Positions 3,213-36,962 of a stretch of DNA of 39,958 nucleotides are shown piece after piece. Each line of letters opens with the position of its first letter. The first letter of the stretch is position 1. The stretch spans positions 1 through 39,958 of IMG/VR virus record IMGVR_UViG_3300025128_000115; one strand, 5' to 3'. The translations under genes and the position numbers were made by a program. The notes below the pieces were generated by a model that saw only the letters and a program-made list of their open reading frames with translations, was not told the DNA's origin and did no database searches. The DNA is from a virus.

Positions 3213-3926
3213 AGCATTTTCATAAAGGTAATCTACCCTAGATCTATCATAAAGCCAGAACACCAATAAGTAACGATCTCCACGATCCACCGCTAAACCA
3301 CGATGTAGGTTGGTAAAGCTCGGAAATATTAGAGCGTGTCCTGTGGGTATCGGATTAACGACACCATAATTATGAAACTCGGTGCCACCGCCTTTGTATT
3401 TGCCAGTGTTGAGGGGCACCACAACTGTCATATCTGCACTTTCATCGTGATGCCAAGCGCCTTGTTTTTTATCAATCAGATTGTAGTTGGCAATTTGCAC
3501 ACTAGAAACCGAAGAACATTGTCGCTGCCACAAAGCCATAAAGATTGGATTGAGAACAGTTTGCACCACAAACCACATGTTTCTATAAATCTCTGGGCAG
3601 GTTTCTTTTAAAACTATCTCTGGTATTTGTCTGAGCTCATCTTCGTGCTCATTGGGCTCAAATGAAAAATGTTTATTCATATAACCAATCTCGTTCAACA
3701 TCATTTTGCAGAACTTTCTTCTGAACAACGGAATACGATAAATGTCTGGGTGTATTTTTTTGATGTGTTTATGCACTGGAGTTTTTTCCATTTTGTGCAA
3801 GCCCTTCGTGGCTGTAAACTTAGTGATTAAGGGCACAGTCTCTTGGACCGCTTTGTAAGTGCTATGGGTAATACCCCAATGCGATTGCATGGATAGCAAA
3901 TAGTTTTTTAAACGATAATCTGTCAC
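3204..3926 (-). CDS. 2OG-Fe(II) dioxygenase (prolyl-4-hydroxylase-like)
   Basis: A 240-residue protein. The catalytic jelly-roll is in the second half: HHDESADMTVVVPLN supplies the H-x-D iron ligands, GGGTEFHNYG is the conserved strand after them, and LHRGLAVDRGDRYLLVFWL gives the distal His and the 2-oxoglutarate-binding Arg. The region PDIYRIPLFRRKFCKMMLNE is the usual entry segment. Such enzymes hydroxylate protein side chains or act on nucleobases; the substrate here is unknown. The gene starts with GTG at 3926 inside an inverted repeat and has no ribosome-binding site, so it may be leaderless. A later in-frame ATG (Met-Glu-Lys-Thr-Pro) is possible but would lose part of the N-terminal helix region. 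It is convergent with the exonuclease gene. Confidence 0.8.
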   Translation of the reverse strand: MTDYRLKNYLLSMQSHWGITHSTYKAVQETVPLITKFTATKGLHKMEKTPVHKHIKKIHPDIYRIPLFRRKFCKMMLNEIGYMNKHFSFEPNEHEDELRQIPEIVLKETCPEIYRNMWFVVQTVLNPIFMALWQRQCSSVSSVQIANYNLIDKKQGAWHHDESADMTVVVPLNTGKYKGGGTEFHNYGVVNPIPTGHALIFPSFTNLHRGLAVDRGDRYLLVFWLYDRSRVDYLYENASP

Positions 3927-5631: not shown

Positions 5632-5676
5632 AATTTTTTCACCTTTGTTTTTGTTATTAATTATCATCACATCTAT

Positions 5677-5705
5677 AATATACACTTTTTTATAAAGAAG
5701 TACAA
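5677..5705 (-). promoter_or_regulatory. Putative promoter of the minus-strand small-gene chain
   Basis: On the minus strand TTGTAC (5700-5705) is followed after 17 bases by TATATT (5677-5682). The spacing is optimal, and the predicted start lies about 40 bases before the 39-residue gene. It faces away from the plus-strand promoter at 5762, so the two early units diverge from one control region. Confidence 0.5.
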
Positions 5706-5729
5706 CTATTTATACACCTATTTATACAT

Positions 5730-5771
5730 TTATTTACAAATATATTTACTCAAATAATTGTTTGTAAATAA
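5730..5771. promoter_or_regulatory. Inverted-repeat operator between divergent promoters
   Basis: TTATTTACAAA (5730-5740) and TTTGTAAATAA (5761-5771) form a perfect 11-bp inverted repeat with centres 31 bases apart, about three helical turns. The right arm covers the -35 of the plus-strand promoter. Upstream, ATTTATACA occurs twice within 5708-5729. The repeat looks like a two-site operator; the ribbon-helix-helix-like gene just downstream is the obvious candidate binder. Confidence 0.5.
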
Positions 5772-5790
5772 GTGCAATTTTGTATATACT
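5762..5790 (+). promoter_or_regulatory. Putative promoter of the ribbon-helix-helix-like gene
   Basis: TTGTAA (5762-5767), a 17-base spacer and TATACT (5785-5790) form a good sigma70-type promoter, starting near 5797, 26 bases before the ATG. The -35 lies within the right arm of the inverted repeat, so a bound repressor would block it. Confidence 0.55.
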
Positions 5791-5822
5791 TCTCTAAACC
5801 AAAAATAATCTGGGAGAGAAAA

Positions 5823-20991: not shown

Positions 20992-21873
20992 TTACTCAAA
21001 GATGATTCTATTAATGGCTTGGTAGTGAACATCCAATGCTTCTGCTGCTCCAGCACCAGCTTCTATTCCAATATAAGGAATAAAGTCAATATCATCAGTC
21101 ATCGCTGCTGATTTTGTAGTGCCTTTAACTACTGCTGTACCACCAGTAGAGCCAGAAGTTGTAGTAATGTCATATTGTATGCCATTAACAAACATAGATA
21201 ATTTTCTATCAGAATCAATTTTTATTCTTAAATGATAAGTTGTGTTTGCAGCTACAGTAATAGGTAAAGCACTAATATAATCAGTACCACCTATGCTATG
21301 CACAAAATGAAGCAGTGTAAAATCAGTGAATGCTTCTGAGTTAGTCGCGTCAGTCTGGAACTTAAAATACGCTTGGTCCGCATCTGTGGCGACCAATTGA
21401 TCGTTGGTTAGCTTTAAACCAGCCCACCATTTTTGATTATCAATTGCATTCGTTGACACTGAGCACTCCCATTCTGTTTGGTTCTCAGAACCCCATAACA
21501 CTCCTGTCCAAGCTGTAAAAGCTGTGTCCAAGTGTGGCGCAATGATTGCCTGATCTTGGTCTGCACCAGCAGTTGTAATAGTCAGCCCAGCTCTTGTCGT
21601 ATCAAAAGTACATAGAGCAGTTGTCATATTGGTTCCTAGAACCTCAAAGTTTTTACTGGCAGCTCTTGCTACTTCAACAGTATATACTTGGTCAATGTCT
21701 GCATTGAGCGCTGGTCTTTTCTTAAAATATGATGATAGGTAGTAACGCCCAGTATTCTTGGTAGCATCGTTTAACTGTGATACATCGCTAATTTCACCAG
21801 TGCCTGAAGCCTTGCTAATGATGTCGAAACCATTTTCGGACCTAACTGGTCCACTAAATGTTGTGTTTGCCAT
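20992..21873 (-). CDS. Lectin-like (jelly-roll) virion surface protein
   Basis: A 293-residue protein with an AGGAG site before ATG 21873. After about 75 residues the sequence becomes strand-rich, and the segment TTYHLRIKIDSDRKLSMFVNG is the type of strand pair found in concanavalin/laminin-G-like sandwiches. The phrase WGSENQTEWECSVSTNAID fits an earlier strand of such a fold. It may decorate the capsid or form a surface spike. It is the first gene after the non-coding region, so it may be controlled by the promoter at 21967 and the leader hairpin TTATCG/CGATAA near 21909-21946. Confidence 0.5.
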   Translation of the reverse strand: MANTTFSGPVRSENGFDIISKASGTGEISDVSQLNDATKNTGRYYLSSYFKKRPALNADIDQVYTVEVARAASKNFEVLGTNMTTALCTFDTTRAGLTITTAGADQDQAIIAPHLDTAFTAWTGVLWGSENQTEWECSVSTNAIDNQKWWAGLKLTNDQLVATDADQAYFKFQTDATNSEAFTDFTLLHFVHSIGGTDYISALPITVAANTTYHLRIKIDSDRKLSMFVNGIQYDITTTSGSTGGTAVVKGTTKSAAMTDDIDFIPYIGIEAGAGAAEALDVHYQAINRIIFE

Positions 21874-21966
21874 AATTCTTTCTCCTGTGAAAAAATAAGT
21901 CTTATCGTCTCGGCTTGTCTGCTAGGTCAGTCGATAAAACAAAATATATTATCCTAGATAACATAA

Positions 21967-21975
21967 ACTATAGCA
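21967..21975 (-). promoter_or_regulatory. Putative extended -10 promoter for the lectin-like gene
   Basis: On the minus strand TGC-TATAGT (extended -10; TATAGT at 21967-21972) lies about 95 bases before ATG 21873. It could restart transcription after the capsid terminator. The -35 is not convincing, and the region is AT-rich, so this remains tentative. Confidence 0.35.
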
Positions 21976-21993
21976 TAAAAAAGGAGCGTGTCG

Positions 21994-22107
21994 TTAAGAA
22001 ATTAACTTAGGTCGAATCAACTTGGTTGTTTTGTAAACAACTTTGCCATCGCCCTCTTTAAAGACGATCTTTCTACCAAAGTCCCAAGTGCTATCTTCAC
22101 ATTTATT
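21994..22107 (-). pseudogene. Protein-like frame without a start codon
   Basis: Between two in-frame TAA codons lies a 37-codon frame that reads like a real protein end: CEDSTWDFGRKIVFKEGDGK followed by VVYKTTKLIRPKLIS. It has no ATG, GTG, or usable TTG at its beginning. An ATG in a shifted frame (22103-22101) begins immediately above it. It may be the 3' remnant of a truncated gene, a frameshifted mini-gene, or an exon of an interrupted gene. Confidence 0.4.
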
Positions 22108-22117
22108 TTAAACAAAA

Positions 22118-22353
22118 AAAATTAGAGGCGTTACCTTCCGGTCAACTATTCGCGAGTATGCCCATGGTTTTCTCAACTCTTAACTCTGCTCCTTACTAAC
22201 ACCACAGACTCGGACAAGTTTATTACTATGCGTGTTTTCAGTGGCTCGATCTTTTCAGACTCCACGATTTCTCATCGCTTCGGAAACTAAGGGACTGATA
22301 AATTATCAGCTATGCCTTTACCTCTAACTTTTTTCTGCTTTTTAAAGAACTCA
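22118..22353 (-). ncRNA. Candidate structured non-coding RNA of unknown class
   Basis: The minus strand from about 22353 to 22118 folds into a closed multi-branch structure. TTAGAGG (22321-22327) pairs with CCTCTAA (22122-22128), followed by eight U residues (22114-22121). Inside are: a hairpin CTGATA/TATCAG (22295-22309); a hairpin GTGG/CCAC plus TCT-GAAA-AGA (22241-22265); a helix AACACGCA with TGTGGTGTT (22198-22206 and 22229-22236, one bulge); and GTT(G)ACC-GGAA-GGTAAC (22130-22146). Two loops are GNRA tetraloops only when read on the minus strand. It is preceded by a consensus -10 and a terminator, so it looks independently transcribed. It is not tmRNA by its ends. It could also be a 5' leader of the next gene. 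Confidence 0.6.
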
Positions 22354-22359
22354 ATTAGT

Positions 22360-22387
22360 ATTATACATATTGTGCAAAAATGTGCAA
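22360..22387 (-). promoter_or_regulatory. Promoter of the candidate RNA
   Basis: On the minus strand a perfect TATAAT (22360-22365) lies 16 bases after TTGCAC (22382-22387). TTGCACA occurs twice, ten bases apart (22371-22377 and 22381-22387), one helical turn, in the -35 zone, which could be an activator site. The expected start is near 22353, and the position just after a strong terminator supports a real promoter. Confidence 0.6.
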
Positions 22388-22423
22388 CTATTTATACTAA
22401 TAAATTACATTTATTTTAGGAAT

Positions 22424-22454
22424 AAAAAAAAAGGGCTCTTCGTAGAGCCCTTTT
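22424..22454 (-). terminator. Strong intrinsic terminator after the capsid gene
   Basis: On the minus strand AAAAGGGCTCT-ACGA-AGAGCCCTTTT forms an 11-bp stem with a four-base loop, followed by a run of T (nine in all). It lies about 40 bases after the capsid stop. The A-run on the other side makes it potentially bidirectional. It separates the capsid transcript from the non-coding region. Confidence 0.9.
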
Positions 22455-22493
22455 AATATAATACTGAGTGATAAAGTGTATTACGACTTCAAA

Positions 22494-23411
22494 CTAAGCT
22501 CCCTGTGAACCATAGATTCCACGCCAGTTAGACCAGCCAAAGCTATATCGTTCTCTAGCTTTGTATCTGATATTACCAGTTGAAAAATCTGGTTCCATGT
22601 TGGTTTCCATACCTGTTCTTTGGAACATTTTAAGCCCTTCGCCTTGATCTGTTACAGATGTAAGCAAGAAGAACGCATCTGGATCAGTCAGATAATGATT
22701 GACAGTATAACCACCAGAAAGAACACCAGTGTTCTTAATAGCGTTAATGTCGTTGTCTGCTGTTCCAGATCTTAAAGGACTGTTCAATATTCTGTCAGCA
22801 ATAAAGGTCAATTGTGGTGGAACCACAAGTTTTGAACTTTGTACTGATATTGTTAGTCCGCGATCATCTGTGAAGGTTGATATATCAATAAGTGCATCTT
22901 CTAATGAAGTTTCATTAAGATCTGCCATTGTTGTTGCTCTGTTAGCGGCAGAACCGCCACCAGCTAGTGGATGGGATGTGTTGATTAACGACACGCCATC
23001 ACCGCCAGTATAACTAGAACTAAACGCATTATTGAGTACATTAGCGCCTTTCACTTCTTTGGTGTTACCCATAGAGCGAGCCAGTGCTTTTGTATATCGT
23101 TTGCCCAGCGAATCATATAAATTATCCTCTACCGCTTCCTCAGTTAAAGCAAAAGCTAACGCAATCGTATCATGCGTATATCTTGCTGTATAACTTTCAG
23201 TAGCGTTGTCGAAATCTACACTTCCGCCTTCAGTTTTTGTTGGAGCTGAACCAAACCCAATTATTAACACTTCTTCTTCAAAGGCTTTTTGCGAGTCTTC
23301 GATAGAAAAAATTTCGGAGTATTCTTGGTTATACTGATCGTATTCCATTCCGAAAAGGCTGTTTAAACCGGGTTCCAATTCTTTAGCTAATTGTGCTCTT
23401 GAAATTGCCAT
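22494..23411 (-). CDS. Major capsid protein (Mu gpT-like)
   Basis: A 305-residue protein with the features of Mu gpT/HK97-fold major capsid proteins: FEEEVLIIGFGSAPTKTEGG, then IALAFALTEEAVEDNLYDSL, RSMGNTKEVKGANVLNNAF and SLINTSHPLAGG, later LTFIADRILNSPLR, and near the C-terminus IRYKARERYSFGWSNWRGIYG. It is placed after scaffold and decoration genes and before a strong terminator, as expected for a highly expressed subunit. It forms the icosahedral shell. Confidence 0.85.
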   Translation of the reverse strand: MAISRAQLAKELEPGLNSLFGMEYDQYNQEYSEIFSIEDSQKAFEEEVLIIGFGSAPTKTEGGSVDFDNATESYTARYTHDTIALAFALTEEAVEDNLYDSLGKRYTKALARSMGNTKEVKGANVLNNAFSSSYTGGDGVSLINTSHPLAGGGSAANRATTMADLNETSLEDALIDISTFTDDRGLTISVQSSKLVVPPQLTFIADRILNSPLRSGTADNDINAIKNTGVLSGGYTVNHYLTDPDAFFLLTSVTDQGEGLKMFQRTGMETNMEPDFSTGNIRYKARERYSFGWSNWRGIYGSQGA

Positions 23412-31920: not shown

Positions 31921-33705
31921 CTATACTGTATATACATCCAAGGCATCAGCCTTGCCTTTAACTTTAATTGTTGTTATTAAGTTTAACTCAAATTTTGTGA
32001 ATTGCGCAGTATTTTTGCCTATGAGCAAATCAACACCCACCTCTTTGGTTGCCGATTCAAGTCGTGCTGCCGTATTTACCGCATCGCCAATAGCGGTATA
32101 GTCAAACCGACTGTCGCTGCCCATATTGCCTATAACAGCTTTACCTGTATTAATACCTATGCCGATGGCAACTGAGGGCATTCCTTTCTTTTTAAACTCT
32201 TTATTCAAGTCTTTCATGTTCTTCATAATGTCTAAAGCACAATCAATTGCTCTTGTTTCGTGATCTAGTTGATCTAGGGGCGCATTAAATATCGCCATCA
32301 TTGCATCCCCAATATACTTATCCACCATGCCTCCGTGTTTTTGCACCGCTTTTTGCTGTGCGGTCAGTGCTTTATTCATAATGTAGGTAACATCCTCTGG
32401 TGGAAGAGACTCGGAAAGAGAGGTAAACCCTCTAACGTCTGTGAATAAAAACGTAGCGTATTTCTTTTCACCCCCTAGTTTCAATAACTCTGGGTTGTTT
32501 TGTAGCTTTTTCACCTGTCTAGGATCAAGATAGTGTTCAAACTGTTTCTTAATTTGTTGTCTTAATTTGTACTGTTCTCTGAATCTTAAATAGAATGCAA
32601 CAGTCGCAGTTATAAATTGAGAGATCAAAGTCCAAGTGAAGTCTAATAAGATTCCATTGGTCTTTATAAAATAAATTTCAGTGTAAGCGGTAGCAATCAT
32701 TACCATTAATCCGAAGACCAACCCCCAAGTAATGCCGAACAAATGCAGTATAAACCAAACAAGAGACACTGAGGCTATAAGTGTGAGCGTTTCTACAGCC
32801 TTTGAATAGTCAGGGATATAAGGACTATCTTGTATAAGAATAGACTCAGATAACGCTGTTTGAATCTTGTGTGGCTCTAGTAAGCCTACTGGCGTTGCCA
32901 ACTGAGGCATAACACCTGCGGCTGTTACACCTATAAATATAAACCTTCCTTCTATATCAGCCTTGTTAGACCACAGATCAGATAGACCAAATTGCGGTGT
33001 GTTCACCCAGCTTATCCACTTTCTTCCTAAAGAATCAGTAGGCACTGCGGGTATTCCTTTGACTCTTACTTCTTCTATTCCGTTCTCGTTTGTTTTAATT
33101 AAATAAGTATCAGCACCTGCTAAAACTTTTAAAACTTCCGTACCATAAGATGATACCCAACCATCAGGAGTACGCATTAATAACGGCATTCGCCTAACTA
33201 ATTGGTCTACATCTGTTGGTGCTACGGCTATCCCTTGATAGGCGCTGTCCTTTAAAATATCTATGTTCTCTATAACCCCTGTGGCTTTATATCCGCCTTT
33301 GTCTTCACCTAAGATTACTGTACCTGTGGTTACAGGATACACTCCGTTCTCATTTTCAAAGGTTGCTAAGACGCTTGGAATCCTTTGCAGACTTTCAGCA
33401 AAGACTTCATCTCCTCCCAACCTGTCTTCTTGAGGGAACGCAATTACCCAACCTACTCCTATAGCGCCTTTATCAATTAGAGCGCTTTGTATATCCGCCA
33501 ATCTTTTTCTCGGAAAAGGGTAGCCGCCTTCTCGCTCCACATCCTTTTCAGTGATATTAAGTATAGAGAAATAACCAGAAGGTATTTTGTCTTCAACAAG
33601 AGCATCAAATGTTTTGAGCTTCAATATTTCTAAAGCTGTCCAGTTCTGGACAAAAGGAAAAACCAAAACAACTAAGAGTATTAGCAGTTTTAAATGCTTA
33701 ATCAC
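31921..33705 (-). CDS. CHASE2-domain class III adenylate cyclase
   Basis: A 594-residue membrane enzyme. After an N-terminal membrane segment (residues 4-20), residues 25-300 form a CHASE2-type extracytoplasmic sensor (DALVEDKIPSGYF, IGVGWVIAFPQEDRL, FIFIGVTAAGVMPQLATPVG). Three membrane helices lie at about 303-373. The C-terminal cyclase domain (about 410-594) has the metal Asp in FTDVRGFT (D423), VDKYIGD (K463, D467), and YTAIGDAVNTAARLE with N544 and R548. The Lys together with Thr537 in place of the usual Asp fits the class IIIb adenylate cyclases. It would make cAMP at the host inner membrane. The start is GTG, overlapping the curlin-repeat stop by 8 bases. A CHASE2 cyclase in a phage late region is very unusual. 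Confidence 0.85.
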   Translation of the reverse strand: MIKHLKLLILLVVLVFPFVQNWTALEILKLKTFDALVEDKIPSGYFSILNITEKDVEREGGYPFPRKRLADIQSALIDKGAIGVGWVIAFPQEDRLGGDEVFAESLQRIPSVLATFENENGVYPVTTGTVILGEDKGGYKATGVIENIDILKDSAYQGIAVAPTDVDQLVRRMPLLMRTPDGWVSSYGTEVLKVLAGADTYLIKTNENGIEEVRVKGIPAVPTDSLGRKWISWVNTPQFGLSDLWSNKADIEGRFIFIGVTAAGVMPQLATPVGLLEPHKIQTALSESILIQDSPYIPDYSKAVETLTLIASVSLVWFILHLFGITWGLVFGLMVMIATAYTEIYFIKTNGILLDFTWTLISQFITATVAFYLRFREQYKLRQQIKKQFEHYLDPRQVKKLQNNPELLKLGGEKKYATFLFTDVRGFTSLSESLPPEDVTYIMNKALTAQQKAVQKHGGMVDKYIGDAMMAIFNAPLDQLDHETRAIDCALDIMKNMKDLNKEFKKKGMPSVAIGIGINTGKAVIGNMGSDSRFDYTAIGDAVNTAARLESATKEVGVDLLIGKNTAQFTKFELNLITTIKVKGKADALDVYTV

Positions 33706-34411
33706 TTTGATTTATGGTGATGGTCTTATTACAGTTGGTACTGCAATTATAAGTAGCTGTAATGCTTTTATTGGTTGTTCCTGATTGTGTGGCATCCACA
33801 TTATAGTCGTCTGTATAAAAATTAAGCCTCATGTAATGATCGCCACTCCCTGATTGTGTAATCTCTGCGTCATTATTATCAGCAGAAGTGCTGGCATATA
33901 TCTTAGCGTAATGTTCCCCTGTCCCTGATTGAGTTATGGTAAACTCTGAATCGTCACCAAAAGCTCTTATCTCGCCTTCTTTATCATCGCCTGTCTGGGT
34001 GATTTTATAAACATTGTCATCACCCTGCATATAGATTTCGGCATCATTATCGTTGCCGTTTTGTATTACATCCATGTCGTTTGAATCATCATCAGCATCA
34101 ATATAACCAAAGTTATCATTGCCGTCTTGATCTATTTTATACTCATTACCAGTGTGATTAGCCACCTGACTATAGGCTCTGGCGGTGTTGCCAGTGCCGT
34201 CTTGATCTATGTCTATGGTTGCATTGCTGCAATTATGGGTAGTGTAAGTGCCTTCAGATATTCCACACCATACTCTAGCGGTGTTGCCCGAACCTATTTG
34301 ATCTATATAGATAACCGTTGAGCTTCCTTTTATTCTAACCTCAGTAGAATTGTCTCCCGCATAGGCACAGAGGGCAGATAAACTAATCAGACTGATTAAT
34401 AACGATCTCAT
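33698..34411 (-). CDS. Secreted curlin-repeat protein 2
   Basis: A 237-residue protein with a signal peptide (MRSLLISLISLSALCAYA) and a mature N-terminus GDNS. It has about nine repeats of the curlin type, with pattern (I/V)-x-I-x-Q-x-G-x-x-N-x-A, e.g. IYIDQIGSGNTARVW, IDIDQDGTGNTARAYS, FTITQSGTGEHYAKIY, ending ITINQSD. Such repeats build CsgA/CsgB amyloid fibres. Unlike Escherichia coli curlins it contains paired Cys (WCGIS with HNCSN, and YNCSTNCN), suggesting disulfide-locked turns. A strong GGAGGAGG ribosome-binding site precedes ATG 34411, so it is likely well expressed. Its start overlaps the FecR gene by 29 bases. Confidence 0.85.
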   Translation of the reverse strand: MRSLLISLISLSALCAYAGDNSTEVRIKGSSTVIYIDQIGSGNTARVWCGISEGTYTTHNCSNATIDIDQDGTGNTARAYSQVANHTGNEYKIDQDGNDNFGYIDADDDSNDMDVIQNGNDNDAEIYMQGDDNVYKITQTGDDKEGEIRAFGDDSEFTITQSGTGEHYAKIYASTSADNNDAEITQSGSGDHYMRLNFYTDDYNVDATQSGTTNKSITATYNCSTNCNKTITINQSD

Positions 34412-35483
34412 TCTCGCCTCCTCCGTTCACTGTAACATTAATTAATCTCCCTGCTGACAGTATCTGAATGTTATAACCACCTGACTTATCCAGCTCCAAA
34501 TCTATCGTGTTCTCTACCTGTCTGAACAAGGTAAAGATTTCTCCCTCTACAAAAGTATAGACTTGAGCGTTAGGATCAAAGCCGGGTACTATGCCCTCTA
34601 GTTTTACTCCGTCTAGCTCTCCTGCGGCTCCTTCATCTTTACCGCCTGCGGCTACTGTTTCAATCATTTCTAATAGGTCTTGTAAAAAGTCTACTGCCAA
34701 TAAGTCTATATCCAGTCGGGTGATCTCCTCTTGTAGCTCGTCTTTAGATAAGTCACTGTCATCATCTAAATCGTTTTCCTCTAAGAAATCAGCATCCAAT
34801 ACATTGGTTGAGCTTTGTGATTGTTCTTGTACCGCTTGTTGTACCTCATCGGGTGGGGTAATTATTAAAAGATTGTCTATAAAGCCCAACGTCATGTTCG
34901 ATAGGGTAACTGGTTTTGTAGGCGGGCTTTCGGACATACTAACCATTGTGGCTTGAAAAGGCTGATTCAATACTTCAATGCCTGCCATTGTTTCTACTGT
35001 AATTTCGCCAGAGCTACTGCCGTCAGGACTAGGAAGTAATATAACTAGACTCCTTCCTAGTTCATCAACGGTGGTTGTAAAATCTGTTCCTCTAACCGCT
35101 ACTGTAGCGCTAGGTGTTCTTATCTTAATGTTCTGTTTATCTATTTTTCCAAGCGCACCAGTAATAAATCTGGCTGTTCCGCTTGCCATCTTGAGCGCCA
35201 TCTTGCTCTTGCTTGGGTCAGGATCATAGATATATTCATCAATAATAATCTTGCTATGCTCAGTAAGACGAATGATAGTAGAATCAAGAAATGTAATGCC
35301 AATACGACCATTACCAGTGCGCACATCATCATAGCTGAAAATACCAAGAGCAGTCTTGGCAAGCAGTTTATCTGATTGATCTTTTCGTAAAACCTCTCCA
35401 TTTCCTCTTAATTCCGATATTTCACCTATCTCTGCATAAGAGTTTAATGAAAAAATTAAAGCAATTAACAGCCACTTGTGCAT
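34383..35483 (-). CDS. FecR-domain protein with curlin-like C-terminus
   Basis: A 366-residue protein with a signal peptide (MHKWLLIALIFSLNSYA). Residues 18-190 carry a FecR domain, with the hallmark IRTPSATVAVRGTDF (121-135) and GDDV-like SYDDVRTGNGRIGITF. A 140-residue acidic/helical middle follows (LDDDSDLSKDELQEEI). The last 45 residues look like degenerate curlin strands (NTIDLELDKSGGYNIQI) and end VINQSD, the same ending as the curlin-repeat protein downstream. No membrane anchor beyond the signal peptide is visible, so it is probably periplasmic or surface. FecR proteins usually regulate sigma factors or, when beside CHASE2 cyclases, may form a sensory pair; the role here is inferred. 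Confidence 0.8.
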   Translation of the reverse strand: MHKWLLIALIFSLNSYAEIGEISELRGNGEVLRKDQSDKLLAKTALGIFSYDDVRTGNGRIGITFLDSTIIRLTEHSKIIIDEYIYDPDPSKSKMALKMASGTARFITGALGKIDKQNIKIRTPSATVAVRGTDFTTTVDELGRSLVILLPSPDGSSSGEITVETMAGIEVLNQPFQATMVSMSESPPTKPVTLSNMTLGFIDNLLIITPPDEVQQAVQEQSQSSTNVLDADFLEENDLDDDSDLSKDELQEEITRLDIDLLAVDFLQDLLEMIETVAAGGKDEGAAGELDGVKLEGIVPGFDPNAQVYTFVEGEIFTLFRQVENTIDLELDKSGGYNIQILSAGRLINVTVNGGGENEIVINQSD

Positions 35484-36148
35484 TGGTCTATATCTATAGT
35501 CCCACTGCTTGTAGTCGATGTTATAACCACCACATCAGATACCGAACCAGTGCTGTTGATCTGATCTATGTCTATATTGTTGGTGCTACCTGTAATTACC
35601 GCAGTAATAGAATGATCTGCATTACCTGTTTGCGTGGTATCAATATCGTTTGAATCGCCATCAACATTCCAGTTATTTATACAGCCAACCACCTCACAAG
35701 TAGCATTAATATTGTTTGAAGTCCCTGCTACTATTATATCTTGGTTCCCTGCTGTGGCAGTGGCTGCTGCTCCTTGTGTAAGTGCCAGCACATTAGAATC
35801 CCCAGTTGCCGCGTAATCAAAATCGGTATTGGCTACATCTCCTGTTGCCCCTAAAGCTAGGGTGGTGATGTTGCTATCTCCAGTGTGTGTTGCTGTGAAT
35901 GAGGAGCTATTACCTTGAGCCACTGTTGCCGCCAATGTGTTTGTATCACCTATTTGATCTATGTCCACAACCATTGAGGTACCAGTAAAGGTTGCTCTAG
36001 CTTGAGAAGTACCGACTTTATTGGTTCCCCCTATTTGATCTATATTCATTGTCAGCCCAGTTCCTGATTGGGTTATATAAATGTCGTTGTCCCCTGCAAA
36101 AGCAAAAGGGGCAAATAAGATTAAAGCCAGCCTAATTAGTTTGTTCAT
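35465..36148 (-). CDS. Secreted curlin-repeat protein 1
   Basis: A 227-residue protein with a signal peptide (MNKLIRLALILFAPFAFA) and mature start GDND. The N-terminal repeats are clear (IYITQSGTGLTMNIDQIGG, VVDIDQIGDTNTLA), the middle is degenerate and Ala/Thr-rich, and repeats return in the C-terminal part (IDTTQTGNADHSITA, NIDIDQINSTGS). It ends IDIDQCTSGC, and has a second Cys pair in CEVVGC. It is secreted across the inner membrane by Sec and probably exported by the adjacent CsgG. It and the second curlin protein are diverged: one may be the nucleator and the other the major fibre subunit. Confidence 0.8.
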   Translation of the reverse strand: MNKLIRLALILFAPFAFAGDNDIYITQSGTGLTMNIDQIGGTNKVGTSQARATFTGTSMVVDIDQIGDTNTLAATVAQGNSSSFTATHTGDSNITTLALGATGDVANTDFDYAATGDSNVLALTQGAAATATAGNQDIIVAGTSNNINATCEVVGCINNWNVDGDSNDIDTTQTGNADHSITAVITGSTNNIDIDQINSTGSVSDVVVITSTTSSGTIDIDQCTSGC

Positions 36149-36962
36149 AATTATAATCCCACATTTGTTGTTCCAAGCCCTTCATAATCAGAGTATAAAC
36201 CGCCTCTTCGATAGCAGCTCTAGTTGCGTAGCCTATGGCTTCGTTTTCTGTGTAGCCTGTTTCTATTTCGACCAACTCAGTGCCCATTTCTACAAAGCGG
36301 AACACATCTCGGCTCACTCCTGCACTCAAAACAGTTTTGCTTATCATACAATTTATCATAACTTCCCCTGTTTGAACAAGAATAGCTCTTAAAGAAACGG
36401 TAATTTCATCTTTTCTCCATTGATTACTAGAGCCAATTCCTAAGTACCTAGCGCCATTCCCGCCAGTTCCGATATTGGTGTCGTATTGAACAATTCCGCC
36501 CTCGATAATCAAGCCTGCAAACAATAAAGGCTTTAAGGAGTTGCCTTCTTCTCCGTCATAGGTCTGTCTAGTTTGCTTTATAAGCTGTCGCTCTCTAGTT
36601 AAGGCATCTAGTGAGGAGCGCTCCACAACAACAAACCATGTGCCTTTTCCTGCACTCCTAAGAGCATCTATAAGGTAATTATCAGACCCTTGTGTAACTG
36701 CGGTGCTAAATAATGCCATCTTCTGTGAGCTTTTGCGTTGCCCAGTAAGGTCAGTAAAATTATACACAGCAACCACGGCTTGCTGATTCGGTGGTCTTAA
36801 TTCAATTAATTTCTGTTGGGTGGGTCTAACAACTTCTGGTTCTTCGACACATTCAAGAATATCAGCACACCCTGAGTGACCCACAGGTGCAAAACTAGCA
36901 CACCCTGATAGGATAAAAGGCAATAATGCCAGTAGGCTTAAATTCCACAATCGTCTGAACAT
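36132..36962 (-). CDS. csgG: CsgG curli secretion pore
   Basis: A 276-residue lipoprotein (lipobox LSGC, Cys21), the size of E. coli CsgG. The core matches that family: VVAVYNFTDLTGQ, LFSTAVTQGSDNYLIDAL, TWFVVVERSSLDALTRERQ, then IIEGGIVQYDTNIGTGGNGARYLGIG, ITVSLRAILVQTGEV, SKTVLSAGV, VFRFVEM, GYTENEA and AIEEAVYTLI. This protein forms the nonameric outer-membrane channel for curli subunits. At the constriction loop the Phe is kept (LFST), but the Tyr and Asn of the E. coli channel are not (SSQKMAL replaces the aligned PYPASN). It overlaps csgF upstream and a curlin-repeat gene downstream. Confidence 0.9.
   Translation of the reverse strand: MFRRLWNLSLLALLPFILSGCASFAPVGHSGCADILECVEEPEVVRPTQQKLIELRPPNQQAVVAVYNFTDLTGQRKSSQKMALFSTAVTQGSDNYLIDALRSAGKGTWFVVVERSSLDALTRERQLIKQTRQTYDGEEGNSLKPLLFAGLIIEGGIVQYDTNIGTGGNGARYLGIGSSNQWRKDEITVSLRAILVQTGEVMINCMISKTVLSAGVSRDVFRFVEMGTELVEIETGYTENEAIGYATRAAIEEAVYTLIMKGLEQQMWDYNYEQTN

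Follow-up and report, generated by a model that had tools for sequence, protein, structure and literature searches.

A candidate RNA gene occupying the cargo slot downstream of a marine phage capsid gene

What occupies the gap between the major capsid gene and the gene that follows it in this viral genome? The window, by which we mean the whole 39,958-nt stretch of DNA analyzed, codes almost exclusively on the minus strand. A first-pass annotation, made from the sequence alone, placed 620 bases between the two genes, a size that we confirmed, and proposed that they hold a separately expressed non-coding RNA. We examined this interval, its borders and its counterparts in related phages; the coordinates of all features are collected in Table 1.

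The capsid protein has cultured relatives in HTVC023P, HTVC027P, CRP-901/902 and DSL-LC04, at 57-64% identity. On the other side of the gap, the next gene encodes a putative virion protein, and the gene at the equivalent position in DSL-LC04 is annotated as cement protein. The strong terminator reported behind the capsid gene was found as described, with its 11-bp hairpin and U-run at 22454-22429. Elsewhere in the window, a curli-type cluster (31921-36962, minus strand) encodes CsgG, curlin repeats, FecR, and CHASE2 with adenylate cyclase; such a cluster is known cargo of HTVC023P-type pelagiphages (PMC9599517).

Table 1. Features in and around the interval between the capsid gene and the next gene, with positions in the window
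Feature	Position	Strand	Remark
Major capsid gene, Mu gpT / Phage_capsid_4 family	22494..23411	-	upstream slot border
PK1, H-type pseudoknot, GAAGT-C-GTAATAC-ACTTT-ATCACTCA-GTATTAT	22458..22490	-	just past capsid stop
Intrinsic terminator of capsid transcript, 11-bp hairpin and U-run	22422..22454	-	
Cassette-boundary spacer TAAAATAAATG, first copy	22408..22418	-	after capsid terminator
Slot promoter TATAAATAG-TTGCAC-16-TATAAT, tandem TTGCACA boxes	22360..22396	-	matrix from 15 relatives
Putative non-coding RNA, ~235-240 nt, ending in U8	22114..22352	-	
Closing helix, 5′ strand GTTAGAGG	22321..22328	-	partner CCTCTAAT at 22128-22121
Cassette-boundary spacer TAAAATAAATG, second copy	22100..22110	-	right after RNA U-run
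Start-less slot-gene remnant, ~35 codons and stop	21997..22107	-	homology begins near 22100
Promoter of next transcript, extended -10 TATAGT	21967..21994	-	-10 box 21972-21967
PK2, H-type pseudoknot, CTAGG...GTTTTATCG-ACTGACCTAGCAGACAAGCCGAGA-CGATAAGAC	21899..21957	-	predicted 5′ end, next transcript
Next gene, putative virion (perhaps cement) protein	20992..21873	-	downstream slot border
Second slot-type promoter, ahead of small-gene operon	5655..5714	-	75% match, 26.2 bits

We surveyed 113 intervals that separate a capsid gene from its downstream neighbor, each measured up to the pseudoknot PK2 described below. Most of these (92/113) span 58-170 nt and have no cargo; the other 21 each include a slot of 500-2512 nt. 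When the ten slots of 500-730 nt were read singly, nine were found to carry a protein gene, and only that of the window does not. Among the first 80 loci, the window has the sole slot that is wholly frame-free, apart from loci cut by a contig end. By inspection of translations, the slot genes of relatives encode nucleotidase-like, helicase-like, zinc-ribbon and unnamed small proteins. EVA or VA is a frequent C-terminus of otherwise unrelated small slot proteins (in L004, L005, L006, L019, L032, L047 and others); the apparent reason is a coupling site, similar to GGAGGTAGCGTAATG, that overlaps these ends.

A TATAAT promoter with tandem TTGCACA boxes had been claimed for the slot, and we located it as TTGCAC at 22387-22382, a 16-nt spacer and TATAAT at 22365-22360, with the second TTGCACA box inside the spacer. 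In relatives, a TGTATAAATAGTTGCA-n-TTGCA-n-TATAAT-like element follows the capsid terminator, and this promoter family is kept in at least 15 of them, in front of small accessory protein genes. Using a matrix trained on the slot promoters of 15 relatives, with the window left out, we found that the predicted promoter of the window is the best-scoring site of the whole 40 kb (35.2 bits, compared to 26.2 for the runner-up), well above chance. As far as sequence can tell, the locus therefore has the own promoter expected of a phage sRNA. A slot-type promoter is also present at 5655-5800 (minus strand), together with several extra TGTATAAATA-like repeats and before small overlapping genes.

Taking the start of the putative RNA from the -10 box places it at 22352. 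Its U-run lies at 22121-22114, so the end coordinate first given for the RNA (22118) cuts this run. As expected of a phage sRNA, the RNA lacks coding capacity: no ATG frame in the slot exceeds 35 aa, the longer frames have no protein-family match in PHROGs, and tblastx finds no relative other than contig L133, which is from the same phage. The tblastx and PHROGs results on the longer frames likewise gave no sign that the RNA originated as a protein fragment.

The two ends of the RNA pair in a closing helix (GUUAGAGG/CCUCUAAU) that is extended by A6/U8, and the extended helix scores better than 1000 of 1000 shuffles, with the A and T runs supplying part of this score. The closing helix proposed in the first-pass annotation holds, but the total fold energy is ordinary (z of -1.0 to -1.7, namely -1.74 for 256 nt and -1.05 for 22118-22352) and several coding windows have a lower z. 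Two GNRA loops had also been noted; GGAA and GAAA loops do form in the minimum-energy fold, which supports them weakly, and GAGAA is a pentaloop in that fold. Likewise, the expected U-run end is present as U8, but the hairpin that stands beside the U-run in a standard intrinsic terminator is missing. The terminator listing for the window contains no local hairpin at the RNA 3′ end, and the U-run is abutted only by the long-range closing helix. Termination would therefore need this helix.

Where the RNA ends, the sequence TAAAATAAATG provides a second marker. It occurs exactly twice in the window, once after the capsid terminator and once after the RNA U-run, and it stands behind the capsid terminator likewise in L004, L006 and L107, with a shorter form in other relatives. 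Because it follows both the U-run and capsid terminators, we read it as a cassette boundary, giving the order promoter, RNA, U-run, spacer. From directly after the cassette (22100-21874), the window matches L091 with 100% identity, and in L091 the counterpart of the short start-less frame found here is the end of a longer gene that runs upstream to the contig edge. The counterpart in L094 is an open frame of ~390 codons with zinc-ribbon motifs. With no more than the final 35 codons left in the window, and no start codon, the cassette has replaced the front portion of a cargo gene.

Two further contigs carry the RNA. L084 is identical to the window across the whole slot. L133 has an identical RNA over 215 nt and differs from the window by 10 mismatches and 3 gaps over 5238 aligned bases, with 6/10 mismatches and 2/3 gaps crowded into ~60 bases of spacer and promoter (22369-22430). 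This crowding suggests that the edge of the cassette is a hot spot of mutation or recombination, and it fits a history of recombination there.

The cassette layout, the absent coding sequence, the replaced gene and the closing helix can each be read from the DNA itself, and the conserved promoter, the boundary after the U-run and the lack of a frame make the separately expressed non-coding RNA of the first-pass annotation likely. We propose that an accessory cassette spans 22396-22100 (minus strand), consisting of the slot promoter, an RNA of ~235 nt and the U-run, and that it fills a cargo slot separating the capsid gene from the next virion gene. The promoter that drives small accessory proteins in relatives would here drive an RNA. 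This RNA would be transcribed from the slot promoter, its 3′ end would form at the U-run with help from the closing helix, and it would most likely act in trans in the infected cell, either through base-pairing or through contact with a host protein, in an accessory role and not as a component of the virion or the packaging machinery. On balance, we favor this account of the cassette as an accessory phage RNA gene, probably encoding a trans-acting sRNA.

We looked for the RNA elsewhere. Its class had been given as unknown, and in covariance-model searches of Rfam 15, at gathering and relaxed thresholds and over the window and relatives, no family reached the cut-off for the RNA; the sub-threshold matches fall on or around the capsid terminator and not on the RNA. 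A blastn search against phages and plasmids gave chance matches only, and the RNA is absent from the 50 related viral records searched, many of which are fragments. Exact and degenerate RNA patterns in IMG/VR and in bacterial genomes found, among the matches listed, only L084 and L133, both from the same phage; all remaining matches are isolated words of 16-23 nt. Every copy of the RNA that we found is thus in the same phage, on near-identical contigs, and these searches gave no homologue outside the one phage species and no sign of long-term conservation. Pairing of the RNA to phage translation starts was not above that of shuffles, 27/40 of which were at least as strong.

This restricted distribution raises the alternative that the interval is recombination debris, in which a promoter was joined to non-functional DNA after loss of the cargo and yields at most noise transcription. 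An orphan sequence in a single species, an ordinary fold energy and a gene remnant directly adjoining would all be expected from such an event. It is harder to reconcile with a closing helix that lines up with the U-run, with a boundary spacer placed after that U-run, with a G+C content of 42% compared to 25-34% in the flanking non-coding stretches, or with an RNA that is unchanged in the second contig (L133), whose promoter region differs. We regard debris as unlikely, although it is the alternative that we take most seriously.

A narrower version of the preferred account, the accessory RNA gene, is that the RNA serves in counter-defense or as a sponge, a decoy of a host regulator or defense protein. 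Its cargo-slot position and host-type promoter would fit such a role, its A-rich segment and U8 end would be compatible with an Hfq-type chaperone, and there is precedent in phage anti-sRNAs, AgvB among them (PMC4104026). However, no target was identified and no repeat or mimic was recognized, and we consider this sub-case doubtful. AgvB, an anti-sRNA of EHEC prophages, is itself a phage-encoded small RNA (PMC4104026; review PMC12197685). Like sRNAs of this type, the slot RNA is short, non-coding, located in an accessory region and under its own promoter, its expression being predicted from that promoter. In contrast to AgvB, the slot RNA has ~235 nt with a closing helix and comes from a marine phage, and no sequence relation between the two was shown.

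The slot is flanked by two H-type pseudoknots, PK1 and PK2. The evidence for these as RNA structures is stronger than that for the slot RNA, and they are new relative to Rfam and to the open papers searched. PK1 recurs right behind the capsid stop in many related phages, and we found 24 distinct matches to it in 806 kb. In stem 1 (36 distinct sequences), 99.4% of cells are paired, with C-G, G-C and U-A exchanges and a score of 0.378 compared to 0.072 for shuffled sequences. In stem 2 (29 sequences), 100% of cells are paired, which is partly selection because the collecting descriptor required stem 2 pairing; all 7/7 pairs are changed on both sides, and the score is 1.075 compared to 0.240 for shuffles and at most 0.201 for slid versions. 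The pair-type exchange and the stem 1 result are free of this selection, as stem 1 pairing was not required. PK1 also has a conserved loop, ATTACTCAA. Several phages (e.g., L073 and L106) lack a terminator, and in these PK1 runs directly into PK2. Readthrough of the capsid stop codon at PK1 was discarded by inspection, as the reading frames either end after a few codons or cross the terminator.

PK2 sequences were gathered by the loop alone, requesting neither the CTAGG partner nor stem 2 pairing, and all 122 distinct sequences nonetheless carry the upstream CTAGG partner and pair in stem 2. In this stem, 8/9 pairs are changed on both sides. Stem 1 is invariant in the 122-sequence set and fully compensated in HTVC023P (CCTAG/CTAGG) and L012 (CCGTG/CACGG). 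A -10 box (at least 5/6 match) lies 3-12 nt before PK2 in 88/115 sequences, compared to 8/115 in a control interval, and PK2 is therefore probably the very 5′ end of an mRNA. Where its start is readable, the gene behind PK2 begins with variants of MANSTFSGP. PK2 is also found in the cultured phages HTVC023P (L389, near 3494-3550) and DSL-LC04 (L390, near 3455-3510), so that these two phages share both a related capsid and this element with the window. Blastn against the phage collection matched the slot RNA in none of the HTVC023P-type phages, and the intervals read in them contain no such cassette.

PK1 and PK2 both show what would be expected of a new cis-element, namely compensatory changes in both stems together with a conserved position and loop. 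Neither has a match in Rfam, the Mu-gpT-DE family included. That RNA (RF03012) is linked, by its name, to Mu gpT capsid genes and was a natural candidate for the pseudoknots because the capsid of the window matches Mu gpT. We rejected it, as a search of 13 records with the Rfam model gave nothing over the 49-bit cut-off; one match in L005 overlaps PK2 at 10.7 bits, compared to that cut-off of 49. One could guess that PK1 and PK2 protect mRNA ends or mediate translational control by a virion protein.

PK2 bears directly on a further suggestion of the first-pass annotation, that the RNA is a leader controlling the next gene, and on the related reading of it as a cis-acting attenuator of the structural operon. 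The RNA lies upstream of that gene on the same strand and ends in a U-run, as a leader would. However, the next gene is preceded by a separate -10 box (21972-21967) and by a conserved 5′-terminal pseudoknot of its own, and the RNA is therefore not taken to be its leader; moreover, the truncated gene lies between the two, and the relatives examined do without such an RNA. We consider this reading very improbable.

The prohead RNA (pRNA) of phi29 is a phage RNA whose ends pair, and the slot RNA is of roughly similar size, also with paired ends. A core function, as packaging RNA or ribozyme, had been among the roles suggested, and a structural RNA of the virion would be a further one; the position beside the capsid gene and the closed multi-branch fold would suit such a function. 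Unlike phi29 pRNA, the slot RNA sits in a variable cargo slot and has no Rfam match to a ribozyme or packaging RNA, and the conserved presence in the lineage that marks a phi29-type packaging RNA was not seen in the 50 related records, many being fragments, where the relatives examined have protein genes or nothing in its place. Because the RNA is absent from the related records searched, a packaging or core role is scarcely credible.

As accessory loci are annotated by reading frames, RNA cargo is easily missed, and a protein gene swapped for an RNA under the same promoter offers a clean case in which to ask about the purpose of such slots. We tentatively suggest, as a possibility on which we would not insist, that a phage accessory slot can carry RNA genes as agents of counter-defense or host takeover, of which this would be the first of its class, and that the slot is framed by two new RNA families, pseudoknots that end the capsid mRNA and start the next virion mRNA, which may regulate virion-protein dosage or mRNA stability.
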